Positions 34,005-61,091 of a stretch of 64,000 bases of DNA are shown piece after piece. Position 1 is the stretch's first letter. Every line of letters begins with the position of its first letter. A program made the translations under genes and the position numbers. Origin of the DNA: a virus; IMG/VR virus record IMGVR_UViG_3300042518_001688, positions 19,409-83,408 of that record, one strand, 5' to 3'. The notes under the pieces were generated by a model, which was not told where the DNA came from, did no database searches, and was given only the letters and a program-made list of their open reading frames with translations.

Positions 34005-34850
34005 CTAAATTGCTTCAATTACAGATGGATACCACTTTAACGATGTCACAGATTTATTGTGTCCTTTGGCTGTATCCATGACAGTTTGAGAATATCCTTT
34101 ACCTTCCTCTGTTGGCTTCCAAGCGGGTTCACTTCCATTCGGGTTTTTAAATTGTAAACCTTTATCTACTAGGAGTTTGTTCATCTTTTGCGCTGACAAT
34201 TTAATGCCAGTTTTAGCTTCGTATAGTTCTGCTAGTTTTCCATGTCTAACTAACTCGTCTTCGATGGGGATACTTAACAACTTCTTGGCTTCTTCCATTG
34301 CAGGTGCAAGCTCCGGGTAAATCTTGGAGAAATAATTAGCCTTAACACCAGCAATTAATCTGGAGTCTGTTCCTGTAGGTATCAAAACCAAGTCAATAGC
34401 AGTAGCACTTGCTTGTAAGTAAAGAGGGTTGCTTAGTTCTTGGTTTATTTGCTCCACTTGCTTGGGTTCTTGTCTTTTCCATCCTGTCTGTTGTTGTATC
34501 CAAGACCGGACACCAATACCAGTAAAAGCAGTGTCAACCATTTCCGCTTGTTTCTTGCATCTTTGTCCAGCTTTATAAGCGTAGTATTTGGCTATGATCG
34601 CGATCGCTAAATCAGGAATACCATTTTCAGTCCAAAACAAAATCCCACCAGCATCAAAGCCTTGCTCTGTAAGCAGTGCAACCAATTTACTAGGAGAAAT
34701 CCCACCAGCAGTTTTAAGCGATTCCAGTAAACTTGTATGATCAACATCCATCAACCTAGCAACTGCACGAATTGACGCTTTACCTTTTCCGGTTGCATCA
34801 ACAGAGATTTCATTTTTGATCTGATCAACGATTAATGCTAAATTAGTCAT
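34005..34850 (-). CDS. phage antirepressor-like protein, copy 1
   Basis: The 281-residue product has PDLAIAIIAKYYAYKAGQRC followed by KKQAEMVDTAFTGIGVRSWI, the helical core of phage antirepressor or regulatory proteins. The C-terminal part (KLAELYEAKTGIKLSAQKMN then KLLVDKGLQ) resembles the AntA/KilAC-type DNA-binding tail. It is paralogous over its full length to the gene at 46478. Both are preceded by the same structured leader. Confidence 0.65.
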   Translation of the reverse strand: MTNLALIVDQIKNEISVDATGKGKASIRAVARLMDVDHTSLLESLKTAGGISPSKLVALLTEQGFDAGGILFWTENGIPDLAIAIIAKYYAYKAGQRCKKQAEMVDTAFTGIGVRSWIQQQTGWKRQEPKQVEQINQELSNPLYLQASATAIDLVLIPTGTDSRLIAGVKANYFSKIYPELAPAMEEAKKLLSIPIEDELVRHGKLAELYEAKTGIKLSAQKMNKLLVDKGLQFKNPNGSEPAWKPTEEGKGYSQTVMDTAKGHNKSVTSLKWYPSVIEAI

Positions 34851-46477: not shown

Positions 46478-47320
46478 TTACCAAATTACATCAATCACAG
46501 ATGGATGCCACTGCAAAGATTGAACGGTTTTATTGTGTCCTTTAGCAGTATCTAAGACAAGTTCGGAGTATTGCTTACCTTCCTCTGTTGGCAACCACGA
46601 AGGATTACCAGTAGCGTTTTTGATCTGCAATCCCTTGTCTGCTAATAATTTATTCACTTTCTGAGCAGATAGCTTGATGCCAGCTTTAGCTTCGTATAGT
46701 TCCGCTAATTTCCCAGGTCTTACAAGATTCTCCTCAACGGGAATACTTAACAGCTTTTTAGCTTCTTCCATCGCGGGTGCAAGTTCAGGACGAATCTTAG
46801 AAAAATGATTAGCTTTAACACCAGCAATTAATCTGCTGTCTATTCCCGTAGGTGCTAAAACTAAATCAATAGCAATAGCATCTGCTTGTAGATCAAAGGA
46901 GTTATTTTGTCCTTGGCTTGTTTGCTCTGTTGGTTTGGTTTCTTGCCTTTTCCATCCCAATTGTTGCTGCAACCAAGACCGGACACCAATACCAGTAAAA
47001 GCAGTGTCAACGAGTTCAGCTTGCTTCTTGCAGTATCTACCAGCTTTGTATGCGTAATATTTGGCTATGACTGCGATCGCTAAATCAGGTATTCCTGTCT
47101 GTGACCACAAGATTTGTTCCGCATACTGAAACCCATTCTCCATAAGGAACTCAGCTAGTTTAGAGGGATTTTGTTCCGCACCCTCAAAAGTTACTCTTAA
47201 TGCCTTTTCGTCAACATCTATTAATCTGGCGGTAGCGCGAACCGACGCTCTACCTTTTCCTGTTGCATCAACAGAAATTTCATTTTTGATCTGGTTAACG
47301 ATTAATGCTAAATTAGTCAT
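46478..47320 (-). CDS. phage antirepressor-like protein, copy 2
   Basis: Full-length paralogue of the gene at 34005 (same MTNLALIVxQIKNEISVDAT start, KYYAYKAG core and KGHNK end), with most divergence in residues 40-75 and 125-145. It breaks the plus-strand head operon on the opposite strand, so it was probably inserted or duplicated there together with its leader. Confidence 0.65.
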   Translation of the reverse strand: MTNLALIVNQIKNEISVDATGKGRASVRATARLIDVDEKALRVTFEGAEQNPSKLAEFLMENGFQYAEQILWSQTGIPDLAIAVIAKYYAYKAGRYCKKQAELVDTAFTGIGVRSWLQQQLGWKRQETKPTEQTSQGQNNSFDLQADAIAIDLVLAPTGIDSRLIAGVKANHFSKIRPELAPAMEEAKKLLSIPVEENLVRPGKLAELYEAKAGIKLSAQKVNKLLADKGLQIKNATGNPSWLPTEEGKQYSELVLDTAKGHNKTVQSLQWHPSVIDVIW

Positions 47321-47488: not shown

Positions 47489-48871
47489 ATGCCTAAACGT
47501 CGCTCTTATAAAGAGCAGGTTGAACATTTTAGCTCACCCTATTTTGGACTCTGCACATTTGCTGACGGCGATGAACAGGTGTCCGATGACAAGATAGTAA
47601 AATCTGCACTGGTTATGGTTGAGGGTCATCACCGTGACTCTAATAATCGAGATCATGTATTCAGTGCAGCCCGTGTTAAGCGGATTGCCGATAGAACAAA
47701 CGAATGGTTAATGAATGGTGGTCGTGTTCCTTGGCAACGTGACCACAAAAAAGATCAGTTAAATAACATCGGTGATTTGGAAGGAACTTTAGAAGTTCGC
47801 CGAATCACCGAAGCTGATTTACCTAATCCCAGGCTGACAGGTTTGGTAGGTAAAATTGGTGCATTCACAACTTCATTAGTGGCCAAGGGTAAAGATGTTG
47901 TTGCTGAAGTATTAGCTGGCAGAATCAAAACCCTTAGTCCTGGTATTGATATTGAGAACGACGTTATCAAAGAAATATCAGCTACTCCTACTCCTGCCAT
48001 AGTTGGATTGTCTACCTTCAAAAAAGCAGAAGCTAAGTTTGCATTAACTTTAGCTGATGCCAAGGCAGAAGAGGAGCAGGAAGGGCAACTTGAGGAAACA
48101 CTGAAAGAATTAGCGGAAATGATTGCTGAAACCGCTAGTTCAATCATGTCTGCTACAGAGGAAGATTTGCAAGGTGCGTCACCTGAAGATTTGCTTTATC
48201 AGTTGGTTCAAGATGCTGCTAACGAAATAGCTATCACACTGGGATTAGGTGATGCTAACTCACCACCTTACGCAGATCCTAGTCAACAATACAACCCATA
48301 CCAACCACCAGGAATGATGGGGCAAACTGGTATGCCTCCTGCTGCACCTGTGCCTGGATATTTACAAAAACAACAAGGTTTTAGTCGTGGTGATAAATAC
48401 GCCAGCTTTACCCTTGCAGGTATAGAACGGGCTGAATTTTTCAGTAATCCATTTAACCGTCGTCGTCAACCTACTCTTGGCGAAAGAATAGGTGGTGCTG
48501 TTGGTACTGCTGTTAAAGGTGCTGCTTTGATTGGTGGTGGTGCGGCTGCTATTAGGTATGGTGGTGCTGGATTAAAAGGTGCAATGAGAGGCGGACGCAC
48601 TGCACTTAAAATGGTTAACAAATCCGGTGCTACTGGCGTTCAAAAAGGCATGGCAGGAGCAACTGGAGCAGGTAAAGGCTTTCTTAGCAATGCCAGAGGG
48701 CAACTATCTTCTGACTTAAAACGAGTTGGAAGTGCGATCGCTGGTACTGGTTCACAGGGAGGAATAAAACAGAGGATTGGACAAGCTGTTTCTAGGGCTG
48801 GTAAGACTGTTGGTGGCTCAACTCAAAATCGCGTCAAGAAGCGGAGAAGTGGAATAATTGACATTGAATAG
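47489..48871 (+). CDS. prohead protease (Mu gpI-like) fused to a module-type tail
   Basis: Residues 30-180 resemble Mu gpI-type serine proteases: VKSALVMVEGHHRDSNNRDH, RVPWQRDH, then a beta core and RIKTLSPGIDI … SATPTPAIVGL. A helical, acidic scaffold-like region follows (about 195-260). The C-terminal third has FSRGDKYASFTLAGIERAEF and then a Gly/Ala-rich basic segment, the same architecture as the small head-cluster proteins. Gene order after MuF is the Mu order. Candidate self-processing sites are EAKF (near 182), YASF (near 311) and RAEF (near 320). Confidence 0.65.
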   Translation: MPKRRSYKEQVEHFSSPYFGLCTFADGDEQVSDDKIVKSALVMVEGHHRDSNNRDHVFSAARVKRIADRTNEWLMNGGRVPWQRDHKKDQLNNIGDLEGTLEVRRITEADLPNPRLTGLVGKIGAFTTSLVAKGKDVVAEVLAGRIKTLSPGIDIENDVIKEISATPTPAIVGLSTFKKAEAKFALTLADAKAEEEQEGQLEETLKELAEMIAETASSIMSATEEDLQGASPEDLLYQLVQDAANEIAITLGLGDANSPPYADPSQQYNPYQPPGMMGQTGMPPAAPVPGYLQKQQGFSRGDKYASFTLAGIERAEFFSNPFNRRRQPTLGERIGGAVGTAVKGAALIGGGAAAIRYGGAGLKGAMRGGRTALKMVNKSGATGVQKGMAGATGAGKGFLSNARGQLSSDLKRVGSAIAGTGSQGGIKQRIGQAVSRAGKTVGGSTQNRVKKRRSGIIDIE

Positions 48872-48897
48872 GAAAAGGAGTTGTAGGTAAAACTACA

Positions 48898-48954
48898 ATG
48901 ACTGCCGCTTCTGGTGCTAGGTCTGGAGCAAAAGGAGTTAGTCGCGCCTTCTAG
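48898..48954 (+). CDS. possible 18-residue remnant of a module gene
   Basis: In the 166-base gap after the protease gene a frame reads MTAASGARSGAKGVSRAF. Its Gly/Ala/Ser composition matches the neighbouring modules. It may be debris rather than a working gene. Confidence 0.25.
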   Translation: MTAASGARSGAKGVSRAF

Positions 48955-49037
48955 TTCAATTAGAAAAAATATTGGTACTAGACTGGGTAATCGAATGATG
49001 TAAGGGAAAAACTGAGATAGTTTTAAGGTTAAAAAAA

Positions 49038-49481
49038 ATGGGCAAATTAAGCAATTACACATTAGCCGGAATTGAGGCGCAACTTTACCCAACTCGTGCT
49101 GCTGAATTTCGCCGGGGCAAGGACAAGAAAAAGAGAAAAACCAGATCACTTAGAGACAACATCATGGGTACGACCACTGCTGGCAGAATTGCTAGAGGTA
49201 TTGGTGCTGCTGGTGCATTGGCTTTAGCTGGTGGTGCAGCTAGATATGGCCGTGTAGCTATGCGGGGTATAAATAGGGGTGCTGGTGCATCTGGAGTAAA
49301 CAAAGGTTTCCGTGATTCTGCAATGGGTGGAGCTAAAGAGGTTCGCGATGCTGTTGCTCGTGACGTTCAAGCTATACGAAGTCGTGCCGGAAACGCTGCT
49401 CAAACTGTCCGCGATCGCGCCGGAAGTGCTGCAACAGGATTTAGAGATCGGATGAGCAATAGATTCAAGAAACAAAAATAA
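49038..49481 (+). CDS. head-cluster module protein 1, 147 aa
   Basis: The N-terminus (NYTLAGIEAQLYPTRAAEF) ends in the A-x-F tag, followed by RRGKDKKKRKTRSLRDN, GTTTAGRIARG and a Gly/Ala-rich hydrophobic stretch. The TLAGIE segment also occurs at the protease C-terminus. The second half is basic with an R-x-R-A-G-N pattern. Very high Lys, Arg, Gly and Ala content fits a DNA-contacting internal head protein; function is inferred. Confidence 0.65.
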   Translation: MGKLSNYTLAGIEAQLYPTRAAEFRRGKDKKKRKTRSLRDNIMGTTTAGRIARGIGAAGALALAGGAARYGRVAMRGINRGAGASGVNKGFRDSAMGGAKEVRDAVARDVQAIRSRAGNAAQTVRDRAGSAATGFRDRMSNRFKKQK

Positions 49482-49486
49482 AACTT

Positions 49487-49882
49487 ATGCAATTATACCC
49501 CTCTCGATCCGGTATCCTAGCTGAGTTTGCCCGCAAGAAAGGCAGTAAAGACAAGAAAAAAAGGAAGCGATCGCTCACAGACAATCTTTTCGGTACGACC
49601 ACTGCCGGCAAATTAGTTAGAGGTGGGTTGCTGACGGGAGGGGCGTTAGTTGCGGGCAAGTTCCGCCCTAAAAAAGTACCTGTCGCTAAACCCCGAATGA
49701 TTGCTGGACGTGGAGAAACAAGCGCACCTTTACAGGTAAACGACTACATAGGAGTTAAGCCTAGAACCTATAAGGACGGTATTGTGGATGGACTGAGAGA
49801 TATGAAACCAAGCGTAACTCCTGCTTTGCCTCCAGGTAAAAAAAGAGGCAGAGGCAGACCCAAAAAGAATTTTAATGTTTAG
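49487..49882 (+). CDS. head-cluster module protein 2 with AT-hook, 131 aa
   Basis: Tag ILAEF (residues 10-14), then ARKKGSKDKKKRKRSLTDNL, FGTTTAGKLVRGG and a short hydrophobic part. The C-terminus KKRGRGRPKKNFNV contains the GRP core of an AT-hook, which binds the minor groove of AT-rich DNA. Five bases separate it from the previous gene. Confidence 0.65.
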   Translation: MQLYPSRSGILAEFARKKGSKDKKKRKRSLTDNLFGTTTAGKLVRGGLLTGGALVAGKFRPKKVPVAKPRMIAGRGETSAPLQVNDYIGVKPRTYKDGIVDGLRDMKPSVTPALPPGKKRGRGRPKKNFNV

Positions 49883-49898
49883 TCGAGAGGAGAAAATA

Positions 49899-50852
49899 AT
49901 GCGACTAATTTCTTCTCGCAATAGAGATTTAGCTACATTTGCCCGTAAAAAAGGCAGCAGGGATAGAAAAAAACGTAAGAAGCGATCGCTCCGAGACAAC
50001 TTATTTGGTACAACCACCACTGGCAGAGTCGCTAGGGGTGCGGGTGCTTTATTGGCAACTGGAGCAACATTGAAGTATGGCAAGCCTAAAGTTTTGGCTA
50101 AAGCCGCATCTGTTAAGCGACAAGCCGAGAAAGTTGTTAACTCAACTCAACAGATAGGCAATGCTGCCCAAGATATAGGACAGGCTGCTCAAAAGATTGG
50201 CAATGTCGTCGAGAAAGTCGGAAACGTGGTTGACGACATTAGAAATATTCCAGTCAATGTTAAACAAAAATTCCAGTCAATGTTAGCACCAACTCGTAAA
50301 GCTATAAAACAACTTAGTCCATCTCCTGTTGTTCCAGATCCTCCCAATTCATCACCCGTATATAACGGATACGACAGCCTAGAAGATTATGTGAAAAACA
50401 GAAAACGCAGACGTTTTAATAACGGAAATCCTATTGCTAAGTTTGCTCGTAAAAAAGGTAGCAAAGATAAAAAGAAAAGAAAGCGATCGCTCACTGACAA
50501 CTTATTTGGTACGACAGCTACGGGTCGAGTAGTGCGTGTGGCTGGATTGGCTGCTGGATTAGGTGGACTTCGTTATGGAGGTGCTGCATTAGGAGAAATT
50601 GGAAAAGCCAGAGAGATGTTGAAAAAAGCTGGTAAATCTGCGCCTTTGGTTAAGGATGGGCAAAGAGCATATATGAAAGATGCCTTAAAATTAGACGCTC
50701 CTGCTGCTGCTAGAGAAAGATTTGCTATGGATGTGGCTAAATTAACCAGAAATAGAGGTAAATACGCTGTCGCTAAAATATCCAGGGATATACGTAGACT
50801 CGGTATGGATCTTAGAGCAAGAGATATTTCTATGAAGACAAGGAGAGAATGA
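49899..50852 (+). CDS. head-cluster module protein 3, two modules, 317 aa
   Basis: ATG 49899 with GAGAGGAG upstream is chosen over ATG 49875. Module one: DLATF then ARKKGSRDRKKRKKRSLRDN and GTTTTGRVARG. A coiled segment with NAAQDIGQAAQKIGN repeats follows. Module two begins near residue 185 with PIAKF, ARKKGSKDKKKRKRSLTDN and GTTATGRVVR. Two modules in one frame look like two fused genes that a protease could separate. Confidence 0.65.
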   Translation: MRLISSRNRDLATFARKKGSRDRKKRKKRSLRDNLFGTTTTGRVARGAGALLATGATLKYGKPKVLAKAASVKRQAEKVVNSTQQIGNAAQDIGQAAQKIGNVVEKVGNVVDDIRNIPVNVKQKFQSMLAPTRKAIKQLSPSPVVPDPPNSSPVYNGYDSLEDYVKNRKRRRFNNGNPIAKFARKKGSKDKKKRKRSLTDNLFGTTATGRVVRVAGLAAGLGGLRYGGAALGEIGKAREMLKKAGKSAPLVKDGQRAYMKDALKLDAPAAARERFAMDVAKLTRNRGKYAVAKISRDIRRLGMDLRARDISMKTRRE

Positions 50853-51282
50853 TGAAATCACTAAATAGAATGATGGCTAAATTTGGCAGGGGTAAGGACA
50901 AGAAACCCCGTAAAAAAAAAGAAACCTAGCTGATGTGGTTGGTTGGGATACATACAACAAGAACCCCAGTAAGTTCACGCCGTTAGATTTGGGATTAAGT
51001 GTAGTCCCTATAGCTGCTCTTGGAGCAAGTGTTGGAACAGATAGAGCGCAAGCAAAACTGATTAAAATTCGCAAAGATTTAGATGCTACAGACATACCAG
51101 CTATTCGAGAGGCAATTAAGTCAGATCCAGATAGGGCTGTTAAAGTTGCAAGAAAAATTGCCGCACCAGGGAAGACCATTGGTAAGTACGCATTAGGTGG
51201 TGCAGCCATAGGGGCTGGTATATATGGGGGTGAATTATTGGCTAGACGTGCATGGAAGAGATTTAAAAACAGGAATAAGTGA
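50852..51282 (+). CDS. head-cluster module protein 4, split by a -1 frameshift at A9
   Basis: ATG 50852 (overlapping the prior stop as TGATG) encodes MKSLNRMMAKFGRGKDKKPR and then reaches nine A residues at 50912-50920 and a stop at 50927. A -1 shift in the A-run yields KKKRNLADVVG, which continues into the frame ending at 51282, and this join restores the usual module pattern. Either a programmed frameshift or a homopolymer length change in the assembly explains it. The second part is a basic helical protein with a Gly-rich segment (ALGGAAIGAGIYGGELLA). Confidence 0.6.
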
Positions 51283-52598
51283 TGAAACTAGGTGGTCGTG
51301 GTCGAGACAAGAAACCAAGAAAACGCAAGCTGCTGGCAAACGCTGGCAGTGTTGCGCTTAACGCTGGTAACACTGGATTAGCTACTGCTGGGACATTAGG
51401 TGTAGCCGGATTAATAGCCAGTCCTCAAAATGCAGCACTCCAAGGTCGCCTAGCTAGAGCCGGATTATTAGCAGGTGCGGGGTATGGAGTTTATCAGGGA
51501 ATAAAGAAATTGAAGTCTAAGAAAAATATCAATTATTCTCAATCAATAAATAAAATGGGAAACATTGCCAAATTTAGAAATACAGAAGTCAATACTGTTG
51601 AACCTGCTGAATACCACAAACATTTATTTGACGCAGCTAGAGCGCAAATTGAAGAAGCGTTTAATGCAGGTGAATTAACTGAACAAGAAGCGATCGCATT
51701 AGAAATTAATGCCATTGGAGAACTGAGAGATCGGCTATCCGATGAAAACATTGATTACCTCTGTGAAGAATTGGGTTATAACCCCGAAGAAGTCGCTAAT
51801 TACTTGGATGCCCAAGAATACGAAGACGACGAAGAAGACGATGAAGAAGACGAAGAGGCTAATTACTCCAGAGGGACTAAATTAGCCGAGTTCCAATCTG
51901 GGAATGCCTTTGGGTACAATCTCCAAACTCTACTTTTAGAAGATGGATACGAGGATGTTACATCTGGTGCTGCTGCTTTAAGTAATGCGCTAGGTGTAAC
52001 AGGTGAAGAAGCTGCTGGTTTGTTGACTGGCGATTATGTTCCCACAAAAGAAACGATCGCACTCTTGGAAGAAATCTTTGAGTTAGATGAAGACCAAGCT
52101 GAAGCTTTAGCTAGTTCTGCTTACGAAGCATGGGAAGAGTCAGGACTCCTTGAGGAAGACGAAGAAGATGGTGATGAGGATAACGAAGCTAATTATCGCT
52201 TACACCAAGCAGAATCACAAATAGCTAAGTTTGAAACTCGTGAACTATTGCGTGATTCCTTAGCTGAATTGGAAATAGTTGCCCAACAAGGTTTACAAGA
52301 GTGGTGGCTACCTCCTGCTGCTTATCGGGCAATTATGGGCAATGATTCCACTGAACAACAACGAATTGCATCCTTTTCTGCTGCTTGTAAAGAAGACGGT
52401 GTGGAATTAGGCGATCGCCTTTATGCCATGCAGTTTGCGATCGCTTGTTTCAAAGAAGCTGGTCCATTATACGGCAACCAGATTATTGAAGAACAGCTAT
52501 CTAAGACCCCTGATGAAGCAAAGTTTGAGGCTTCTGTGGAAACTCAAGCACAACGTAATCACCGTCGTCGGATGCAAAACAATCCTTTACCCCAGTAG
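51282..52598 (+). CDS. acidic scaffold-like polyprotein with several A-x-F tags, 438 aa
   Basis: The N-terminus is a module without tag (GGRGRDKKPRKRKLLANAG plus a hydrophobic part). The rest is acidic and helical, with runs such as EYEDDEEDDEEDEEANYSRG. Tags occur at NIAKF (near residue 94), KLAEF (near 204), QIAKF (near 315) and EAKF (near 416), dividing it into segments that each resemble a small domain. Position between protease and capsid genes fits a scaffold degraded at maturation. Confidence 0.55.
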   Translation: MKLGGRGRDKKPRKRKLLANAGSVALNAGNTGLATAGTLGVAGLIASPQNAALQGRLARAGLLAGAGYGVYQGIKKLKSKKNINYSQSINKMGNIAKFRNTEVNTVEPAEYHKHLFDAARAQIEEAFNAGELTEQEAIALEINAIGELRDRLSDENIDYLCEELGYNPEEVANYLDAQEYEDDEEDDEEDEEANYSRGTKLAEFQSGNAFGYNLQTLLLEDGYEDVTSGAAALSNALGVTGEEAAGLLTGDYVPTKETIALLEEIFELDEDQAEALASSAYEAWEESGLLEEDEEDGDEDNEANYRLHQAESQIAKFETRELLRDSLAELEIVAQQGLQEWWLPPAAYRAIMGNDSTEQQRIASFSAACKEDGVELGDRLYAMQFAIACFKEAGPLYGNQIIEEQLSKTPDEAKFEASVETQAQRNHRRRMQNNPLPQ

Positions 52599-52604
52599 GA
52601 ACTC

Positions 52605-53465
52605 ATGACTTGGAATAGACGTTCAAATATTGAATTAGGGAAGGCGGTTGTCGCTGCTGTAGAAGGCATTGAGACAATCAGTGTCCTTCTTGTCAGAGAC
52701 AGATTAGGTTCTGACGACGATAACAAAAAATCCTTCCCCGCAGGTGCGGTTATCTGCCGAATTGGTACTGCTTATCACATCCACCCTGGCAGTAAAGTAA
52801 CTGCTGCTTTCTCCACTGGTGCTGCAACTGGAACTGTAGAATTACCCCGTGTGTTTAAAGCAGGTGACGTTCTAACCGTTCCTGATGGACACCACGTTAT
52901 TACTATCACTGGTACTTGGACTACAGGTGGTGATGTTCGTGTTACCCTTCCCAATGGATTCGTTAAGGTGATCGCAACTGGTGCGGGTGGTTCTACCTCC
53001 ATGACTACCACTCAGGTTGCAGCTAAGGTTGCGCTTGAATTAAATAATGACCCCGTTGCCTCTGATTTGTTGTTTGCCACCAACATAGCGAACGTGGTTT
53101 ATGCGTTCAATAAGCGGGAAATGAACTCAGCTTCATTTGCTGTTGCGTCCACATCCAACGCATCTGATTTAGCACTTGTTACCAGACCTCCGGGTACTGT
53201 TGTTGGCACTATCCTGTCCTACACCAACGCTGGGGTAATTACTTTAACTGGTAACGCCGCGATCGCTGTTCCTATTGGTGCAAATGTCGCTGTAGCTGTT
53301 AATGAAATTGTGGGCATTTATCCTCAACCTATTGATTTAACATACCAACCCAATCAAGCGATCGCTCCTATTATCACTGGTCGAATTTACGAAAACGCAT
53401 TACCTTATTTTGATGATGCGGTGCGTCGGGCATTACCAAAAATCAAGTTTACTGAAAAGTTCTAA
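52605..53465 (+). CDS. putative head decoration protein, 286 aa
   Basis: Beta-rich, Ala/Val/Thr-rich protein. It begins MTWNRRSNIELGKAVVAAVE and has FPAGAVICRIGTAYHIHPGS near the start, typical of capsid decoration folds. Lies between scaffold-like gene and major capsid gene. AGGAACTC precedes ATG 52605. Role assigned from location and composition. Confidence 0.5.
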   Translation: MTWNRRSNIELGKAVVAAVEGIETISVLLVRDRLGSDDDNKKSFPAGAVICRIGTAYHIHPGSKVTAAFSTGAATGTVELPRVFKAGDVLTVPDGHHVITITGTWTTGGDVRVTLPNGFVKVIATGAGGSTSMTTTQVAAKVALELNNDPVASDLLFATNIANVVYAFNKREMNSASFAVASTSNASDLALVTRPPGTVVGTILSYTNAGVITLTGNAAIAVPIGANVAVAVNEIVGIYPQPIDLTYQPNQAIAPIITGRIYENALPYFDDAVRRALPKIKFTEKF

Positions 53466-53486
53466 TTGTTGTTTTTGGTATTTGTG

Positions 53487-53525
53487 GCCATGTTCGATTC
53501 GATTTTCGAGCATGGCTATTTTTTT
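53487..53525 (+). terminator. rho-independent terminator built on a TTCGATTCGA motif
   Basis: GCCATGTTCGA (53487-53497) pairs with TCGAGCATGGC (53506-53516) with one mismatch, then TATTTTTTT. The left arm and loop contain the recurring TTCGATTCGA sequence. Confidence 0.75.
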
Positions 53526-53542
53526 AGGAATGGTGAATTATT

Positions 53543-54094
53543 ATGTCAAAACTAGCCAGATTCGCAAGACCTAAAGGTGCGAAGGATAAGAAAAAACGTA
53601 AGTCTAATCTATTACGTAATATTGCTATTGGTGCAGGTGGCACTGCGTTGCTTAGCAGTGCGGCTTATCTCGGTAGAGGTAAAATTGCTGGATTGATGAG
53701 CAAAGGGAAACCGAAGCCAGGTGTAACTAAAGTTCCTTACTCGCAGTTATCGAAAGAAGAATTGTTGTCAATGGGTGGCAAAGGTCGCATAAACGCAAGA
53801 AAAGCTGTTGTGTCAAGAACGAGTCAGAAGGACGATTTAAAGTATGGAGTGACACCAAATAGTGTTGATGATTTTGAAAACATTAATGCTATTAATAACG
53901 CTATCAATACCAATCGCCCTGGTTTTACTAAAGAGATGCTGAGGAAAATGAAAAAAGAAAAAGCGGTAAGAATAAAGGCTTACGCTGATCGGCTTAGAAA
54001 AGAAGGTGCTTATTATTCTTCATCTTCGCAGACTACCAATTTCCATGAATCAACAATGATGTCTCTAGCTAGTTTTAACCGCAAATGGAAATAA
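53543..54094 (+). CDS. head-cluster module protein 5, 183 aa
   Basis: MSKLARFARPKGAKDKKKRK opens the protein, then a hydrophobic segment (IAIGAGGTALLSSAAYLG) and a long charged helical part. The C-terminus MMSLASFNRKWK is a second tag, very like the start of the next gene (MLTLASF). Confidence 0.65.
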   Translation: MSKLARFARPKGAKDKKKRKSNLLRNIAIGAGGTALLSSAAYLGRGKIAGLMSKGKPKPGVTKVPYSQLSKEELLSMGGKGRINARKAVVSRTSQKDDLKYGVTPNSVDDFENINAINNAINTNRPGFTKEMLRKMKKEKAVRIKAYADRLRKEGAYYSSSSQTTNFHESTMMSLASFNRKWK

Positions 54095-54114
54095 TTATTT
54101 AAAAGGTAAATTTT

Positions 54115-54564
54115 ATGCTAACTTTGGCTTCTTTCCGTAGAGGAAAAGACAGGAAGAAAAGAAAATCTCGTAAACGTAAATATTTAGAATCTGCTGCTCA
54201 AGGTGCAGGTATTGGTGTTGTCGCAGTACCTACCGCAGTTGGCATCAGGGAAACGTTTAGGGCTGAAAATGTAGGTAAACCACTAGGTCAAAGCGTCGCA
54301 CGAAACGTATATGCTGGTGTGGCTCGTGGTGCTGCGCGGGGTACAGTTCGCGGTATTTATAGAGGTGCTTTAGCTGGGATGATTGGTGACAGCCTAGAAA
54401 AAGGAGTATCAACACTTTCATCTAAAGGTATTCTGGGTAAGGTACTATTAGGTAGTGCTGCTGCTGGTGCTGCTGGTGGCGTAATAGCCAGAAGGATGAG
54501 AGAAAAAGACCGCGAACGTAAATCTATCCCCGGTAAACTTAAAAGATTCCTGGGAGGTAGGTAA
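54115..54564 (+). CDS. head-cluster module protein 6, 149 aa
   Basis: MLTLASFRRGKDRKKRKSRK is the tag plus basic stretch. The rest has Gly/Ala zipper-like segments (GVARGAARGTVRGIYRGALA and LLGSAAAGAAGGVIA) that could enter membranes. Basic C-terminus. Its stop overlaps the next start as TAATG. Confidence 0.65.
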   Translation: MLTLASFRRGKDRKKRKSRKRKYLESAAQGAGIGVVAVPTAVGIRETFRAENVGKPLGQSVARNVYAGVARGAARGTVRGIYRGALAGMIGDSLEKGVSTLSSKGILGKVLLGSAAAGAAGGVIARRMREKDRERKSIPGKLKRFLGGR

Positions 54565-55304
54565 TGCTTGACAATATTAATCCTTTCTACCGCAAGAGAA
54601 AAGGCAAGTTGCAACTCGTTAGAGGTTTTCTCCGCAAGAAGAGAAAGTCTTTGTCAGCGATTAAAAAGAGAGTAATTCAATCTATCCCTGATAAAAAAGA
54701 TTTATCTAATATTAAGAAAAAAGTAATTAAAGTTCTCCCCAAGAAAAAGAAGAAAGATCCTAACTTATTGGGAGAAGGTAAAAACGGTAGAGTTATTGCC
54801 AAGGGTCCATTTACAATCCGCAAGGAATATAAAAAACGTCGGTTCTTAGATCCTGCAAGGAAATTGTTGGATGGACAAACTGCATGGGATAGGGAATACG
54901 GCATACAAAAAGTATTAGCCGATAGGGGTCTAGCTCCCAAAGTGAAACGTAAAGGTGAAAGATTTATTGAAATGGAACGAGTTTATGGTGAAACCATTGA
55001 CTCGAAAATGAAAAACGGTGAAGCGAGCGATCGCACTCAAAGAAAGTACGGCAAGAAATTAGCTAGGGAAGTGAAGCGGATGCACGATGCTGGTGTTTCC
55101 CATAATGATTTACATGGCGAGAATGTTATGGTTGGTCCATTCGGTGGCATGAAAGTAATTGATTATGGCTGGGCAAATGATAAAGGCAGACCCCTGAAGA
55201 TGAGGGAACGCAGGAAAGACTATGATAAGGTTCTCTCTAGGCATAAGGGTAAAAAGTACAAGGCGTTTAGGGATAGCTTTGAAAAGTCTTATTATGATTA
55301 TTAA
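54564..55304 (+). CDS. protein-kinase-like protein with basic N-terminus, 246 aa
   Basis: The first 65 residues are Lys/Arg-rich (FLRKKRKSLSAIKKRVIQSI) and resemble the module cargo. A kinase-like fold follows: Gly-rich loop GEGKNGRV, IRKEY with a candidate ATP lysine, catalytic loop HNDLHGENVM and metal loop IDYGWA (a DFG variant). It is closest in style to RIO or small phage and archaeal kinases. It is co-translated with a module gene inside the head operon, so it may be packaged and delivered. Substrate unknown. Confidence 0.7.
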   Translation: MLDNINPFYRKRKGKLQLVRGFLRKKRKSLSAIKKRVIQSIPDKKDLSNIKKKVIKVLPKKKKKDPNLLGEGKNGRVIAKGPFTIRKEYKKRRFLDPARKLLDGQTAWDREYGIQKVLADRGLAPKVKRKGERFIEMERVYGETIDSKMKNGEASDRTQRKYGKKLAREVKRMHDAGVSHNDLHGENVMVGPFGGMKVIDYGWANDKGRPLKMRERRKDYDKVLSRHKGKKYKAFRDSFEKSYYDY

Positions 55305-55309
55305 GACAA

Positions 55310-55342
55310 CAGTCATGCTCGATTTGAACATGACTGATATTT
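55310..55342 (+). terminator. hairpin and T-run before the capsid gene
   Basis: CAGTCATG (55310-55317) and CATGACTG (55329-55336) pair perfectly around an 11-base loop, followed by ATATTTTTA. It could trim read-through so that the capsid gene is separately expressed. Confidence 0.55.
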
Positions 55343-55461
55343 TTAAACTTGTGGGTGAGAAACTTGCCAACGAAACCACCTGGAATATTGCAAGTGTTCC
55401 TGCGTGGGTTGGCAATACAAATATTATCCATAGCCATAATCGAATCGAACACAGGGAATAA
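55330..55461 (+). CDS. possible 43-residue gene before the capsid gene
   Basis: From ATG 55330 a frame encodes MTDIFKLVGEKLANETTWNI and continues to 55461. The composition looks protein-like but the start lies inside the hairpin above and no ribosome-binding site is evident. The rest of 55305-55492 has a TCGAATCGAA motif at 55440-55449. Confidence 0.3.
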   Translation: MTDIFKLVGEKLANETTWNIASVPAWVGNTNIIHSHNRIEHRE

Positions 55462-55492
55462 CAGCAACGAACATTAACTGTGTATAGAAAAA

Positions 55493-56638
55493 ATGGCTTA
55501 TATTGCATCCTGGCTGAATGAACATCAGCAAACAAAGGAAGCTGATTTAGTTATAGATGAAACTCTAACTTGGCTTAAACAACGGTCTGGTTTGTTGGAT
55601 AAGTATGTCCCGTTAAAGACATATTCAAGCCGCAATTTCTTGATGTATGTTGTCAACAAAATCCGTACCGTTGCTTCTATTATTTCTTATGGAGCAGAGC
55701 CTCCGGTAGTTCGTTTGGGCAACTTCAACACCATTGACGCAAAAATGTTCAAGGTGGGTTTAAGTGTCTATTACGATGAAGATCAACAGTGGCAAATGAA
55801 GGAAGCAATGGAATTAGCGAGACTAAAAAATGTCTCTGTTCAAGACCAGGTTCTTCCTGATGGTTCAATTTTAAAAGGGTCAAACGAAGACCTTGCTAAT
55901 TTAATTCTTGGCAGCAATGGGACAATCGCAGACATTACTAGGTCTATTGGTGAATTATTAAATTATTTAACTTGGCAAGCACTTCAGAACGGTTCTGTGA
56001 ACTATACAGATCCTCGTACTAATGCCACTCCATTGGTACTGGATTACAAAAATCCTTCTGGCGGTTATAACCATTTCCCTGCGGCTTTAACTGGTAATGA
56101 TAGCTGGGATCGTCCCAACACAGCGAATGCTCTGGCTGTGCTTGAGGAAGATGTTGAAACTTTCACTACCACCAATGGTTTCAAGCCTGATTTAATTGTC
56201 ATGCCGTTAAAAGTGCGTCGGGCGATGCTGAACCAGGAATCTACTCGTCAAGCGGTTGCCAGCATGAGCAACAACTCTGCGATGTTGGTCGCCAATGCTG
56301 TTGGTTCTGTTGGTCCAGAAATGTTAATGGGTGTACTGGAACGCCGGGAACTTCCCCCAATCATCACATTTGATGAACAGTTTGAAATGGAAGACTCTAA
56401 CAAGAACCAGAACAAAATGCGGTTCTTAAACAACAACCGTTATGTATTCTTGACCAAGAATATGGGCGAACGGGCAATGGGTCCCACTTTGGAAGGTGAT
56501 GGAAGAGAAGGTGCTTATGTTGTTACCCGTGAAGTTCAGAAATTCCCCCCTGTAGATGCTACCCAAGGTGTGGCCACTGCGTTACCTGCCTTTGGTAATC
56601 CCAAATTGTTCTTCTCCCGTCAAGTAATCACTGAATAG
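55493..56638 (+). CDS. major capsid protein
   Basis: The 381-residue product fits the E-type/HK97-fold capsid proteins: an N-terminal arm, YVPLKTYSSRNFLMYVVNKI, FKVGLSVYYDEDQQWQMKEA, a central domain with NGSVNYTDPRTNATP and FTTTNGFKPDLIVMPLKVRR, and a C-terminal RFLNNNRYVFLTKN strand. It follows protease, scaffold and decoration genes in standard order. No A-x-F tag is visible at its start, so it may not be cleaved. Confidence 0.8.
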   Translation: MAYIASWLNEHQQTKEADLVIDETLTWLKQRSGLLDKYVPLKTYSSRNFLMYVVNKIRTVASIISYGAEPPVVRLGNFNTIDAKMFKVGLSVYYDEDQQWQMKEAMELARLKNVSVQDQVLPDGSILKGSNEDLANLILGSNGTIADITRSIGELLNYLTWQALQNGSVNYTDPRTNATPLVLDYKNPSGGYNHFPAALTGNDSWDRPNTANALAVLEEDVETFTTTNGFKPDLIVMPLKVRRAMLNQESTRQAVASMSNNSAMLVANAVGSVGPEMLMGVLERRELPPIITFDEQFEMEDSNKNQNKMRFLNNNRYVFLTKNMGERAMGPTLEGDGREGAYVVTREVQKFPPVDATQGVATALPAFGNPKLFFSRQVITE

Positions 56639-56640
56639 CC

Positions 56641-56955
56641 ATGATTGATCCAACAAAGCCTGTCCACTTAAAAACTATGATTCGGGATATCAAAACAGGA
56701 AATGTTTATATTCCCTTGAACCGTGCCTATCAACCTGGCGAAATTCCTTTTCGGTTGTTGACTGATGCTAACGCATACCAAGATGAAAGCACCGCAGAAG
56801 TTGTTGTGCCTACTCAGTCCACTGTCACCCAGATAGCACCCCCGCTAGAACTATCTTCTAGTCAAATCCCAAGCACCAAACTAGAACCTGCACAACCTAG
56901 AACAACCAGAATAGCCAAGGTACAGCCTGAAGCAAGTGAACTTAAAACGGAGTAA
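56641..56955 (+). CDS. hypothetical Pro/Thr-rich protein after the capsid gene, 104 aa
   Basis: The N-terminal half is compact (PVHLKTMIRDIKTGNVYIPL) and the C-terminal half is Pro/Ser/Thr-rich and likely flexible. It starts two bases after the capsid stop. Possibly a head accessory protein. Confidence 0.5.
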   Translation: MIDPTKPVHLKTMIRDIKTGNVYIPLNRAYQPGEIPFRLLTDANAYQDESTAEVVVPTQSTVTQIAPPLELSSSQIPSTKLEPAQPRTTRIAKVQPEASELKTE

Positions 56956-56958
56956 TCT

Positions 56959-57624
56959 ATGCCCCGCTATTCAAAGCTGGCTAATTTTGCCAGAACTAGA
57001 GGGGCGAAAGACAAACGCCCCCGTAAAAAACGTAGTGATTTATTGGATAGAGAGTACAAGGGTGCGCGGACTATAGAGATGCGTACCCGTTCTATAGCTA
57101 ATTTAGGCAGAACATTAAACTCTATAGGTAGTTCAGTCAGAGAAGCTCGATTAACTGCTAAATGGCTGGGTATCAACCCATCTAGAAAACGCAGTGATCC
57201 GATGTCAATTATTAGAAATGCCCGTTCTGTGTCAGATACGGGGAATAGTATACTTCGATTAGGTAGAGGGTTGTTTGGTATGCGATCGCTCAGTTCAATG
57301 ATGGCTGAGTTCCGCAGGGGTAAGGATAAGAAAAAGAGGAAAATTAGGAAATCCACAATTTTACAAAATGCACTTTATGGTGCAGCTTTAACAGGTGCGC
57401 CTGGTGCGATTAGTGGAGCAACAGAAGAAATGCTTTCAACTAGAGTCCCTATTGGCAAGCTTCGCAATGGACAAACCATTGATGTCTTTAGCACCAAACC
57501 ATCTGTGATCCTGAAGGGTGCGCTAAAAGGTGCTATTAGAACCGCACCAATAGGAGCAGCACTAGGGGCTGGCAGTTTAATTGCGGCTCGTGGATTACGG
57601 AAATTAATGGAAAGGGAGATATAA
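56959..57624 (+). CDS. head-cluster module protein 7, two modules, 221 aa
   Basis: Module one: KLANFARTRGAKDKRPRKKR. Module two starts near residue 110 with MRSLSSMMAEFRRGKDKKKR, including an internal Met that mirrors the starts of separate module genes, so this looks like an in-frame fusion. A hydrophobic Gly/Ala segment (APIGAALGAGSLIAARGLRK) ends the protein. Confidence 0.65.
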   Translation: MPRYSKLANFARTRGAKDKRPRKKRSDLLDREYKGARTIEMRTRSIANLGRTLNSIGSSVREARLTAKWLGINPSRKRSDPMSIIRNARSVSDTGNSILRLGRGLFGMRSLSSMMAEFRRGKDKKKRKIRKSTILQNALYGAALTGAPGAISGATEEMLSTRVPIGKLRNGQTIDVFSTKPSVILKGALKGAIRTAPIGAALGAGSLIAARGLRKLMEREI

Positions 57625-57626
57625 TT

Positions 57627-58007
57627 ATGCGATCGCTCAATTCAATGATGGCTGAATTTGCTAGAGGCAAAGACAAGAAAAAGAGAAGAAAGCGAACCTT
57701 AGCGGGTTCTGCTGGTAAAGGTGCTGCTATTGGCATGGGAGTACCTTTAGCTCTTGGCACTTTAGCTGGTGCTACTGGTGCTGGTATATATGCAGCAAAA
57801 GCAGGAATGAAACCAGGAATGGTTGGGCTTTCTATACCTGCTGGTGGACTTGGTGGACTAGCGGCTACCGCAAATAAAGCCCCTGGTAAAGTATTAGCTG
57901 CTGGTGCTTTAGGTGGTGGAATCGGTGCTGGCTTGTATGGTGCAGATAGATTAAAAGAGCGTAACGGTAATCGCTCACCTTTAAATAGAATCGCAGGGAA
58001 AAGGTAG
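57627..58007 (+). CDS. head-cluster module protein 8, 126 aa
   Basis: MRSLNSMMAEFARGKDKKKR then KRTLAGSAGKGAAIGMG and an extended Gly/Ala-rich hydrophobic region with zipper spacing (AGALGGGIGAGLYGADRLKE). Starts two bases after the previous stop. Confidence 0.65.
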   Translation: MRSLNSMMAEFARGKDKKKRRKRTLAGSAGKGAAIGMGVPLALGTLAGATGAGIYAAKAGMKPGMVGLSIPAGGLGGLAATANKAPGKVLAAGALGGGIGAGLYGADRLKERNGNRSPLNRIAGKR

Positions 58008-58009
58008 TT

Positions 58010-58384
58010 ATGAAATTAATATCTTCTCGATATGATTTAGCTGAGTTTCGCAGGGGTAAAGACAAGAGGCAGAGGAAGAAAAAGTCTTTACTAGGTGCTA
58101 TTGGTAAAGGTGCTTTAATTGGTGCTGTTATCCCAGTAGGTGTAGGCGCATTGGGAATGGCAGGACTTGGGGCATCATCAACAGCTAAATCTATACCCCA
58201 AAGGATTTTTAATACTGGCGTAAGCTCATCTATAGGAGGTGCGATGGGAGGCGCACTTGCTCCTGCTACTGCTTTAGCTGGTGGTGCTACTGCTGCTACT
58301 GCTTACGGTATTAACAAGCTGAGAAATAAAGACAAAAAGCCAACAGTGCGATCGCGGTTAAACAACTTAATTCCTGGTAGGTAA
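58010..58384 (+). CDS. head-cluster module protein 9, 124 aa
   Basis: Tag RYDLAEF, basic RRGKDKRQRKKKSLLGAIGK and a long hydrophobic Gly/Ala region (GALIGAVIPVGVGALGMAGL). Two bases from its neighbour. Confidence 0.65.
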   Translation: MKLISSRYDLAEFRRGKDKRQRKKKSLLGAIGKGALIGAVIPVGVGALGMAGLGASSTAKSIPQRIFNTGVSSSIGGAMGGALAPATALAGGATAATAYGINKLRNKDKKPTVRSRLNNLIPGR

Positions 58385-58386
58385 CT

Positions 58387-58992
58387 ATGTCAACTTACAC
58401 CACAGTAGAAGCGATCGCGCGGAGACTACAGGGTAGATTAAAGGTAATTTCTACCCTGTCCCCTACCACTACCCCCAACTACAATACTCAGCAAGTAGTT
58501 GACCCGTTATTAATACAAGATGTTTTGGAGCAAGTCGAGAACGATCTTGATTTGACTTTGGCTCAGATATATGAAATGCCGTTACAAAATAAACATCCTT
58601 TACTGGCAGGGATTGTAGAGAAATTAGTAACAGTAGAAATATTGCAGACATATTATCAAAGTACCCAATCTCCTGAAATGGGGGGAGATCCGGGTTATGG
58701 TAGATTGCTTTATCAACAGGCACAACAGGCGATCGCTAAATTAACTGCGGGTCATAACATCATGGTGTTTGGGGTTCAACCCCCTGCACAAATGCCAGGA
58801 GTAGTTACACCACAACCAATAGTTTTACCTGGAGAAAGATTAGCGTTAAAGCCACCCGATACCCTATCAACTAACGTTACTGTTGTCACCTCTACCAAGT
58901 GGAGAAAGTTGTCAGATGGCGATCGCAAGGATTGGGGGATTAATTGGGATAACCAAGATAGAGCTAGAGGTGCTGATGAATTATGGAATTAA
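58387..58992 (+). CDS. head-tail connector (gp36/DUF1320-like), 201 aa
   Basis: Helical N-terminal domain (VEAIARRLQGRLKVI … QDVLEQVENDLDLTLAQIYE … LAGIVEKLVTVEILQTYYQ) with the size and helix order of head-tail connectors that follow capsid genes. The C-terminal 70 residues are extended and Pro-rich. Confidence 0.55.
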   Translation: MSTYTTVEAIARRLQGRLKVISTLSPTTTPNYNTQQVVDPLLIQDVLEQVENDLDLTLAQIYEMPLQNKHPLLAGIVEKLVTVEILQTYYQSTQSPEMGGDPGYGRLLYQQAQQAIAKLTAGHNIMVFGVQPPAQMPGVVTPQPIVLPGERLALKPPDTLSTNVTVVTSTKWRKLSDGDRKDWGINWDNQDRARGADELWN

Positions 58993-59066
58993 TTTACTCC
59001 CGACATAGTTTAGCTACATTTGCCAAACCCCGCACCCCACAAAATACAGAACCAGTAGGCGTGTAA
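58983..59066 (+). CDS. 27-residue tag-only module
   Basis: A frame overlapping the connector stop encodes MELIYSRHSLATFAKPRTPQ and stops. It has a tag like modules 3 and 9 (SSRxDLATF) but lost or never had the basic and hydrophobic parts. A 42-base gap follows. Confidence 0.4.
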   Translation: MELIYSRHSLATFAKPRTPQNTEPVGV

Positions 59067-59108
59067 AAAGTCCAAAATAAAATTTACAACAATATCCATT
59101 GTTTTATC

Positions 59109-59831
59109 ATGAAATCACTAAATACTATGGTAGCTGAATTTGGCAGAGGTAAGGATAAAGCCCCAAGAAAGAAAAGGGCTAACCTCAGAAATCATGTTCT
59201 CGGTGGGACGATAGTTGGCGGTATTGCTGGCAATGCACTCACAAAACCTATTACTGTTCCCATTGAGTTAGTTGGTGGTTTAGCTGGTAGTGCGATCGGC
59301 GCGGGTGCAGGTGCAGCTACTTATGGAGCAAGAAGGGCATGGCGTGGAGGAAAAGCATTAGTAGCGAAACTTAGAGGAAAAGAACCGGAGAAGTACGATT
59401 ATATGAAAAGTTTAAGTAGAATGACGGCTGAATTTGCTCGTACTAGAGGCGCAACAGATAAAAAACCCAGGAAGAGAGGAACATTAGCAGGATACATAGG
59501 CAAAGGTGCTGCGATTGGTGCGCTAGGCATGGTGGGAGGAAGTGCTTTGTTGGGCGGAGTTCATGGTGCGGCTGTAGCCAAACAGGCAGCCAAAGGTTTA
59601 GGCATTCCTTTTAAACCAATACGCACTCGACTTCAAGTAGGTGCTGGAGGTGCAATGCTTGAAGGTATGAAAGGTGCTATGGTAGCCCCTGGTGCTGCGA
59701 TCGCGGGCGGAGGAATTGGTGCTGGTGCTTATGGGATCAATAAACTTCGTAATCGGAACAAAGAGGAAAAACCCACATCACGACTACAATCAGCAAGAAA
59801 GAAACTCGGTGGCATGATTGGCGGAAACTAA
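59109..59831 (+). CDS. head-cluster module protein 10, two modules, 240 aa
   Basis: Module one: MKSLNTMVAEFGRGKDKAPR then RKKRANLRNHVLGG. Module two begins near residue 98 with MKSLSRMTAEFARTRGATDK and KPRKRGTLAGYIG. Both have Gly/Ala hydrophobic tails. A fusion of two module genes, with the second Met preserved. Confidence 0.65.
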   Translation: MKSLNTMVAEFGRGKDKAPRKKRANLRNHVLGGTIVGGIAGNALTKPITVPIELVGGLAGSAIGAGAGAATYGARRAWRGGKALVAKLRGKEPEKYDYMKSLSRMTAEFARTRGATDKKPRKRGTLAGYIGKGAAIGALGMVGGSALLGGVHGAAVAKQAAKGLGIPFKPIRTRLQVGAGGAMLEGMKGAMVAPGAAIAGGGIGAGAYGINKLRNRNKEEKPTSRLQSARKKLGGMIGGN

Positions 59832-60274
59832 TGGAACTAAGAATCACTGGACTCCAACAAGTTAACAGCCTATTAGCGGAAGCCCAGAAAAAATCCAAGG
59901 ACTTCTCTCCACTAGAAGCAACCCTGAGAGATATATTCTATGCAGATGCTTCTAAAAGGTTTGAATCATCTCCTTCCGTAGATACAGGTGGTATGGTCTA
60001 TGGGGATGAATATTGGCGAAAACTTAAAAAAGTACCACCTCATCGTCGGGGAGGTCAGGTATTAATTGACAGTGAGACAATGATGCAATCTGTAACCGTT
60101 GAGGGAGATGGTAACGGCATCTTTGAAATCAACGGCACAGAAGTCATCTTCGGTTCAAGAGTTCCCTATGCCAATAAGCAGAATGTAGACCGTCCTTTTC
60201 TGTTTTGGCATCCATTGTTATTGGAGCAGGTGACAAAGGCGATATCTGAATGGTTGGCAGATATTACTCCTTAA
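59831..60274 (+). CDS. phage virion morphogenesis / tail completion protein, 147 aa
   Basis: The product begins MELRITGLQQVNSLLAEAQK and contains RDIFYADASKRFESSPSVDT and a late FGSRVPYANKQNVDRPFLFW, resembling Mu gpG / HK97 gp10-type neck proteins. Start overlaps the prior stop as TAATG. Position after the connector supports this. Confidence 0.65.
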   Translation: MELRITGLQQVNSLLAEAQKKSKDFSPLEATLRDIFYADASKRFESSPSVDTGGMVYGDEYWRKLKKVPPHRRGGQVLIDSETMMQSVTVEGDGNGIFEINGTEVIFGSRVPYANKQNVDRPFLFWHPLLLEQVTKAISEWLADITP

Positions 60275-60428
60275 CATCGTTCTGGATATCTTTTAAAAGA
60301 GTATCAATATTTTGAATCTGCTTCTTTGCATTCTTCAAATGTGCTTCCGCGATCGCCACTTGTTCCTTGTAGAACTCTCTCAATTCAAGCAGTCCTTCAA
60401 GTGCGCTTTTTGGTGGCTGTGGAAGCAT
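60264..60428 (-). CDS. small coiled-coil protein, 54 aa
   Basis: ATG 60428 ([12 protein letters not shown]) opens a coiled coil ([20 protein letters not shown]). It overlaps the end of the neck gene by 11 bases on the other strand and its upstream neighbour by 32. It belongs to a small antisense pair inside the late operon. Confidence 0.45.
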
Positions 60429-60606
60429 TTTTCTTGGTTCTATTAAAAGGTGGATGGCAAAATTCGCAGTAGGTTGGACGTGGACCAAATGTTTCTCTTT
60501 GGGTTGGCTGACTACACTTTTTACAAATGAAATTGAATATCCGAGATTGGATAGTACGGTAATGCTCTCGGACGGTATAAGCCCGGACTCTAACTAGCTT
60601 TTCCAT
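60397..60606 (-). CDS. zinc-ribbon protein, 69 aa
   Basis: Two CxxC pairs (ICKKC and YCEFC) about 20 residues apart form a likely zinc ribbon, with basic ends. It is antisense to the late operon. On the opposite strand 60618-60625 carries CTGGCAGG. Confidence 0.5.
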
Positions 60607-60677
60607 GATTATTTTGACTGGCAGGTCGATCCTAATTATCGGATATGGGAACTAAAAAAGCAAAGAGGGTAATTAAC

Positions 60678-61091
60678 ATGAAGTCACTTAATAGGATGAT
60701 GGCTGAGTTTGGCAGGGGTAAGGATAAAAAGAAGAGGAAGAAGAAGTTTCTGGGAACTGTAGGAAGTAATGCCGTTCTTGGTGCAATTGGAGGAGCATTA
60801 TATCCTACAGCATCCATGCTTGCAATATCTCGTATGATGCCAAAAGGCATGACACCACCATTGAATTACCGAAATATACCTATAATGATGGCTCGAAATG
60901 CGGTTATCGGAGCTACACTTGGTGGCGTTGGTAGCGGTATTAATTACGGAGCAGGGAAGATCGTAGAGTCGAGTGGCAACTTAATTGAAAAAAAATTCGG
61001 TAAACCACCTACTCCTCGGCAAAAAGTGGGAAGAGGTGTAAAACGGACAGGAGAAAGGTTGGGTAACTATATTTCTGGTGACAAAAAATGA
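60678..61091 (+). CDS. head-cluster module protein 11, 137 aa
   Basis: ATG 60678 behind AGAGGGT gives MKSLNRMMAEFGRGKDKKKR, nearly the same start as module 4 at 50852. Hydrophobic and Gly-rich middle (AVIGATLGGVGSGINYGAGK) and basic C-terminus. Stop overlaps the next start as ATGA. Confidence 0.65.
   Translation: MKSLNRMMAEFGRGKDKKKRKKKFLGTVGSNAVLGAIGGALYPTASMLAISRMMPKGMTPPLNYRNIPIMMARNAVIGATLGGVGSGINYGAGKIVESSGNLIEKKFGKPPTPRQKVGRGVKRTGERLGNYISGDKK

Follow-up and report, generated by a model that had tools for sequence, protein, structure and literature searches.

The tagged module genes of the head region

The 64,000-nucleotide stretch analysed here (the window) comprises positions 19409-83408 of the virus record IMGVR_UViG_3300042518_001688, which totals 83,408 bases. 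Its head region contains an array of small genes whose products carry a short tag ending in alanine, a variable residue and phenylalanine (A-x-F), followed by a basic stretch and a Gly/Ala-rich segment. An earlier note on this DNA had proposed that about eleven such genes encode capsid-internal cargo, with the tag as a targeting or cleavage signal. All 11 could be re-read directly from the sequence as + strand genes lying within 49038-61091, with the correction that the open reading frame (ORF) said to start at 49899 actually opens at 49875. Three of them (49875, 56959 and 59109) have two modules, as had been claimed, and a tag-only mini-ORF that had been missed lies among them. The array reads as follows.

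49038-49481, + strand: tagged module protein, AAEF then RRGKDKKKRK; 147 aa, net charge +23
49487-49882, + strand: tagged module protein, LAEF then ARKKGSKDKKKRK; C-terminus RGRGRPKK, AT-hook-like
49875-50852, + strand: two-module protein, DLATF/ARKKGSRDRKK plus junction PIAKF/ARKKGSKDKKK; net charge +51
50852-50929, + strand: tag plus basic motif, MKSLNRMMAKF then GRGKDKKPRKKKET; frame broken at a run of nine A
50935-51282, + strand: Gly/Ala-rich body, probably the rest of the gene begun at 50852
53543-54094, + strand: tagged module protein, KLARF then ARPKGAKDKKKRK; second A-x-F (LASF) close to the C-terminus
54115-54564, + strand: tagged module protein, TLASF then RRGKDRKKRK
56959-57624, + strand: two-module protein, KLANF then ARTRGAKDKRPRKK, plus MRSLSSMMAEF then RRGKDKKKRK
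57627-58007, + strand: tagged module protein, MRSLNSMMAEF then ARGKDKKKRR
58010-58384, + strand: tagged module protein, MKLISSRYDLAEF then RRGKDKRQRKK
58983-59066, + strand: tag-only mini-ORF, MELIYSRHSLATF then AKPRTPQNTEPVGV; 27 aa, also in a near-identical contig
59109-59831, + strand: two-module protein, MKSLNTMVAEF/GRGKDKAPRKK plus MKSLSRMTAEF then ARTRGATDKKPRK
60678-61091, + strand: tagged module protein, MKSLNRMMAEF then GRGKDKKKRKKK; ORF also open from 60645

The nine-A run that interrupts the gene at 50852 (window 50905-50935) may be a sequencing error, a mutation or a slippage site; the gene continues in 50935-51282. The near-identical contig (L001) begins at window position 51727. 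Its first 120 bases differ from the window at about 51830 by a 12-base in-frame indel in an acidic repeat of the scaffold-like protein, and the remaining overlap shows zero mismatches across 12.3 kb.

The description of the modules as basic and Gly/Ala-rich was borne out, the median net charge per residue being +0.15 versus -0.01 and the G+A fraction 0.30 versus 0.12, and the module cargo proteins have net charges of +18 to +51. The very basic stretches and the one AT-hook-like RGRGRPKK end make it plausible that these proteins bind or condense DNA. Runs of the small-xxx-small type were commonly about twice the shuffled expectation, though not in every module protein. When pore-forming ejection proteins (T7 gp14-16, P22 gp7/16/20) were considered for comparison, the hydrophobic 19-residue segments of the modules proved moderate (Kyte-Doolittle score, KD, 1.0-2.0), and an AlphaFold (AF2) model of one module protein was uninformative, with a predicted local distance difference test (pLDDT) score of 51 and no confident fold. 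The Gly/Ala part could possibly be membrane-active. The same segments, together with small-xxx-small runs that exceed the shuffled expectation in most of the proteins, would also suit small membrane proteins of a holin-like or superinfection-exclusion-like kind, made in the cell and lying outside the virion. However, the modules are confined to the head operon, are fused to protease and scaffold and share a common site with them, and they are strongly positive throughout, so that we regard this explanation as highly improbable.

A-x-F sites in the array, the prohead protease and the scaffold

The module genes had been described as scattered among protease, scaffold, capsid, connector and neck genes, and inspection of the neighbours agrees with this, the strength of homology varying: it is weak for the connector (phrog_195, 0.006; Mu Gp36, 0.003) and very weak for the neck protein (phrog_26, 0.1). 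What had been overlooked is that the protease carries a fused module at its C-terminus and the scaffold one at its N-terminus, and that A-x-F is present in head proteins other than the modules. The larger genes concerned are listed below.

42365-45694, + strand: minor head protein, SPP1 gp7/Mu gpF type; 1109 residues, three A-x-F sites
47489-48871, + strand: prohead protease; ordered domain ~24-167, linker, then C-terminal Gly/Ala-rich basic module
51279-52598, + strand: fusion of a module (residues 1-92) with an acidic scaffold-like protein containing six A-x-F sites
54564-55304, + strand: protein-kinase-like protein in the array, by the capsid gene; Pkinase 7e-9, net charge +41
55493-56638, + strand: major capsid protein; phrog_29, 1.8e-25

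Tag sites were located in all six frames by the basic stretch after the phenylalanine alone, the preceding residues playing no part in the search. This gave 14 tag-plus-basic motifs in the 11 genes, and every one of them reads A-x-F, with alanine at -2 from the phenylalanine. The tag ending A-E/K/T/S-F of the earlier note thus holds in all 14, the middle residue being E in eight, K in two and T, N, S or R in one each. An A-x-F within the first 35 residues was found in 11 of 24 head-region ORFs versus 9 of 108 others in the record (Fisher 4.6e-5), where 1.8 head-region ORFs were expected from shuffles; with the additional requirement of R at +2, the figures were 10/24 versus 0/108 (6e-9). No head-region bias was seen for A-x-A, A-x-I, A-x-L, A-x-V, A-x-Y, A-x-W, A-x-M or A-x-S, the eight pairs used as controls. 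Among all over-represented a-x-b pairs in head-region proteins A-x-F ranked first (30 versus 13.5 expected), and outside the head region it was not enriched (28 versus 35 expected). The T4 prohead protease gp21 cleaves at I/L-x-E, and when the same pair statistic was applied to T4 gp67, 68, 21, 22, 23 and 24 as a positive control, I-x-E came out on top and L-x-E in third place of 263, in agreement with that rule.

The protease supplies sites of its own. Its phenylalanine-anchored sites are CTF (22-24), AKF (182-184), ASF (305-307) and AEF (315-317), and the AlphaFold model is confident only at residues ~24-167, between the first two. Identification as a protease comes from phrog_976, matched by 11 of 11 aligned members (best 5.6e-5, the window member itself only 0.07), and from a match of the model to predicted capsid maturation proteases in the viral fold library BFVD (E 6.6e-7); the PA-SR01 homologue is annotated as Mu-like gpI. 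D85-H86, S150-x-G152 and E162 are invariant across the 11 divergent members, and we take these to be the catalytic positions, including the His and Ser of Caudoviricetes prohead proteases. Phe24, immediately before the domain, is invariant in the same 11 members (CTF in the window, elsewhere SAEF, SANF/SRANF or IKF). A second site directly follows the domain (AKFAL in the window, ATFALS and AAFALS in the relatives G001 and G002, TANF in the Pam2 clade), and a third, KLAQF/YASF, aligns near the C-terminus. The G002 protease gene (L061:13592-14320, - strand) has a frameshift soon after the catalytic domain, and the other frame continues with VAAF and KLANF.

In the scaffold-like ORF at 51279, the net charge of which is -42, A-x-F sites likewise align across lineages (KLAEF/GVANF/NVAEF; QIAKF/RIAEF; RIASF/RVAAF/RVAQF). 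Its N-terminal module is a separate gene in G001 and G002, and NIAKF stands at the fusion junction in the window. The minor head protein has A-x-F at 98, at 107 and near its C-terminus (KLAMF then VSNLRNGI). Pam2-type capsid proteins have L-A-D/E-F near the C-terminus, with Q in place of A in two contigs. The kinase-like protein has a very basic N-terminal third and no clear A-x-F (MLDNINPF then YRKRKGK); its membership of the array is uncertain, and it is possibly an ejected kinase. Two antirepressor-like genes, 34005-34850 (- strand) and 46478-47320 (- strand), flank the tail/head region, with KilAC just below the cut-off.

Exchange of tags and bodies among relatives

Relatives were collected via the capsid protein and the protease. 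At ~30% identity these are numerous IMG/VR contigs together with two isolated phages of Pseudanabaena, Pam2 and PA-SR01; a closer set, G001-G004, has 47-53% capsid identity. As Pam2 and PA-SR01 are the nearest named phages (~31% capsid identity), the host of the virus is probably a cyanobacterium. The bacterial genome collection, searched with the capsid and module alignments, contained zero relatives and thus offered no host or prophage link. A tblastn search of 50,697 phage records with a two-module protein gave no match, and the module proteins that were scanned against PHROGs and Pfam had no meaningful match to any family.

In G001 and G002 the tag takes the form M-x-x-LFISDI..x-x-F or MYYLSDI..x-x-F. 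Each has it on 8-9 proteins, joined to bodies as different as Gly-rich modules, DUF6496 (E 9e-7), DUF5754 (E 2e-8) and one that is lipase-like. The lipase-like body, seen in G001, has a GHSSG motif, with Lipase_3 at E 0.02, below the cut-off; in its gene (L054:2991-4196) GHSSG follows a hydrophobic segment, and the corresponding tagged gene in G002 is L061:14628-15863. It is possible that this protein is an ejected hydrolase. The DUF6496 protein of G002, with the tag MYYLSDI..EF, is encoded on the opposite strand and outside the head block (L060:8573-8767, - strand), and is a candidate for packaged cargo. A tag-only ORF, MYYFISDYRAVDFQANLI, is present in G001 as well. In G001-G003 (L054, L061, L066-L067) many head-operon proteins contain, close to one end or the other, a second recurrent basic motif, V-K-S-x-I-R-K-G-K-x-V-K-x-Y-x-R.

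These comparisons bear on two further explanations. According to the first, the phenylalanine is simply the first residue of an AT-hook-like nucleic-acid-binding motif, F-A-R-x-x-G-[SA]-x-D-K-x-x-R-K, and the products are DNA-binding proteins that are not specially packaged. The near constancy across phages of Phe followed by the ARKKGSKDKKKRK motif would be explained in this way, as would the strongly basic character of the proteins and the RGRGRPKK end of one of them. Against this, protease, scaffold and minor head protein have A-x-F without the basic motif, and the tag is found on bodies that lack the motif (IEF/KASKGFSRK in the DUF6496 protein; AQF/RVGMSG in G002 66520), which makes the explanation very unlikely. 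According to the second, the tag is an uncleaved docking peptide for the scaffold or inner capsid surface and the module proteins stay in the head as permanent minor components. Conservation of the upstream tag within each phage (MKSLNxMM, LFISDI), beyond the needs of a protease site, does suggest binding. However, A-x-F flanks the protease domain and recurs within the scaffold, and second modules in fused proteins have often lost the upstream tag and keep A-x-F alone (PIAKF, VAQF, LLAEF, VAEF), as a protease site would; permanent docking without cleavage therefore seems to us unlikely. Cleavage is also consistent with the G003/L076 lineage, where isoleucine, leucine, valine or tyrosine replaces the P3 alanine in modules (LIEF, LLEF, FVNF, SYEF), protease flank (MLIKF, LLNF) and scaffold (LVTF, LIEF) alike. 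A concerted shift of this kind, which here rests on few sites, would be expected of sites that are all read by a single protease.

Probable processed internal cargo and its counterparts in other phages

The reading that we consider probable is that the array encodes capsid-internal cargo with capsid-targeting propeptides, processed at A-x-F by the phage prohead protease. Each cargo protein would be made with an N-terminal propeptide of 7-24 residues, the upstream part of which (of the MKSLNxMM or MxLISSR type here, LFISDI or YYLSDI type in relatives) would direct it to the scaffold core, and the end of which, a hydrophobic residue followed by Ala-x-Phe, would be the cleavage site, most likely cut after the phenylalanine. 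The protease would cut itself on both sides of its own domain and the acidic scaffold at several A-x-F sites, scaffold fragments and propeptides would leave, and two-module proteins and modules fused to protease or scaffold would be separated at their junction sites. We infer that the basic Gly/Ala-rich bodies would remain with the DNA and be ejected on infection. That the scaffold is acidic (-42) and the predicted cargo basic (+18 to +51) is in keeping with co-assembly. As regards the earlier note, its proposal of internal cargo with the tag as targeting or cleavage signal gains support from the conserved protease and scaffold sites and from the unrelated tagged bodies in relatives, and the membrane activity that it added is at most a possibility.

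Several points weigh against this interpretation. The regions compared had been picked with the finding already known. In a second positive control, A-x-E of SPN3US was recovered weakly (rank 22 of 298), and with modules excluded the enrichment of A-x-F in the window was modest (10 versus 4.3, rank 4 of 246), in a test for which the Pam2 grouping was post hoc. A-x-F was not enriched in the pooled capsid, decoration, connector, neck and following proteins (4 versus 4.7 expected), and the window capsid protein itself has no such site, being without the C-terminal A-x-F extension of the Pam2 type. Some G001 and G002 tags have I, S, T or V rather than alanine at P3. Finally, fold and sequence searches of the PDB gave no match for the protease or for the capsid protein.

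A close parallel in organisation is T4, where internal proteins IPI-III and Alt, processed by gp21, share a short N-terminal propeptide (10-19 aa) that is common to different, mostly basic head proteins (PMC9026906); T4-type phages have several such basic internal proteins tagged with a capsid-targeting sequence (CTS), and the gp21 cleavage motif is discussed in the same source. There the propeptide ends in a P3-x-P1 protease site, as proposed for the tag here, the acidic scaffold has several sites and the protease has sites at its own termini. The basic predicted cargo and acidic scaffold of the window match the T4 organisation. Mutational dissection of the T4 CTS assigned targeting mainly to residues 4 and 7 and processing to residues 8 and 10 (PMC9026906), a separation of upstream targeting and terminal processing parts that resembles the tag here. 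The differences are that A-x-F replaces I/L-x-E and does not conform to gp21 specificity, that cargo genes are more numerous (11 plus fusions) and interleaved through the head operon, that the modules are Gly/Ala-rich and in many cases occur twice in one protein or are joined to protease and scaffold, and that Pam2, the nearest relative among isolated phages, belongs to the siphoviruses whereas T4 is a myovirus. No homology to T4 IPI-III was found for the module proteins scanned against Pfam and PHROGs.

In SPN3US and phiKZ-type phages many internal proteins are cut, by gp245, at A-x-E, with P3 alanine and a free P2 as here, and some mature SPN3US ejection proteins have transmembrane segments (PMC10052503, PMC5694885). 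However, P1 is glutamate there and phenylalanine here, the propeptides are mostly 111-254 aa rather than 7-24, and homology was not found. Phage P1 carries a set of internal defence proteins, the Dar proteins, and the N-terminal peptide of DarB is enough by itself to bring a reporter into the head (PMC9024508); the Dar N-termini lack a consensus, whereas the tags here are nearly identical within one phage. Nearer to the window, Pam2 and PA-SR01 have homologous protease, scaffold and capsid proteins (~23-40% identity in aligned parts), and Pam2 has A-x-F-tagged Gly-rich proteins, gp15-gp17. They differ in that multi-module proteins are fewer and longer and that the capsid protein, too, has A-x-F close to its C-terminus. 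The parts of the Pam2 and PA-SR01 papers that were available contained no description of the tag motif, and the literature searched gave none of an A-x-F or Phe-specific prohead protease. The earlier statement that no described phage has such an array is thus too broad as to kind, given the T4-type cargo and the many processed ejection proteins of SPN3US (PMC5694885); what does seem new is the gene number, the fusing of modules and a rule based on Phe.

Taken further, we regard it as an evenly balanced proposition that a lineage of (cyano)phages evolved a swappable capsid-loading peptide together with a Phe-specific prohead protease, packing at least a dozen different basic or enzymatic proteins (DUF6496, DUF5754, lipase-like and perhaps kinase), and that in the G003 lineage the substrates shifted together with protease specificity, P3 changing from Ala to Ile/Leu/Val. 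The approach would allow the proteins packaged in a phage head to be recognised from sequence alone, and would identify cargo in those phages whose head genes are almost all hypothetical. It predicts a prohead-protease rule, A-x-F, that is directly testable in the two isolated relatives, Pam2 and PA-SR01. A short tag of this kind could be used to load proteins into the heads of cyanophages, and a concerted site change across all substrates would be a natural example of protease-substrate co-evolution.

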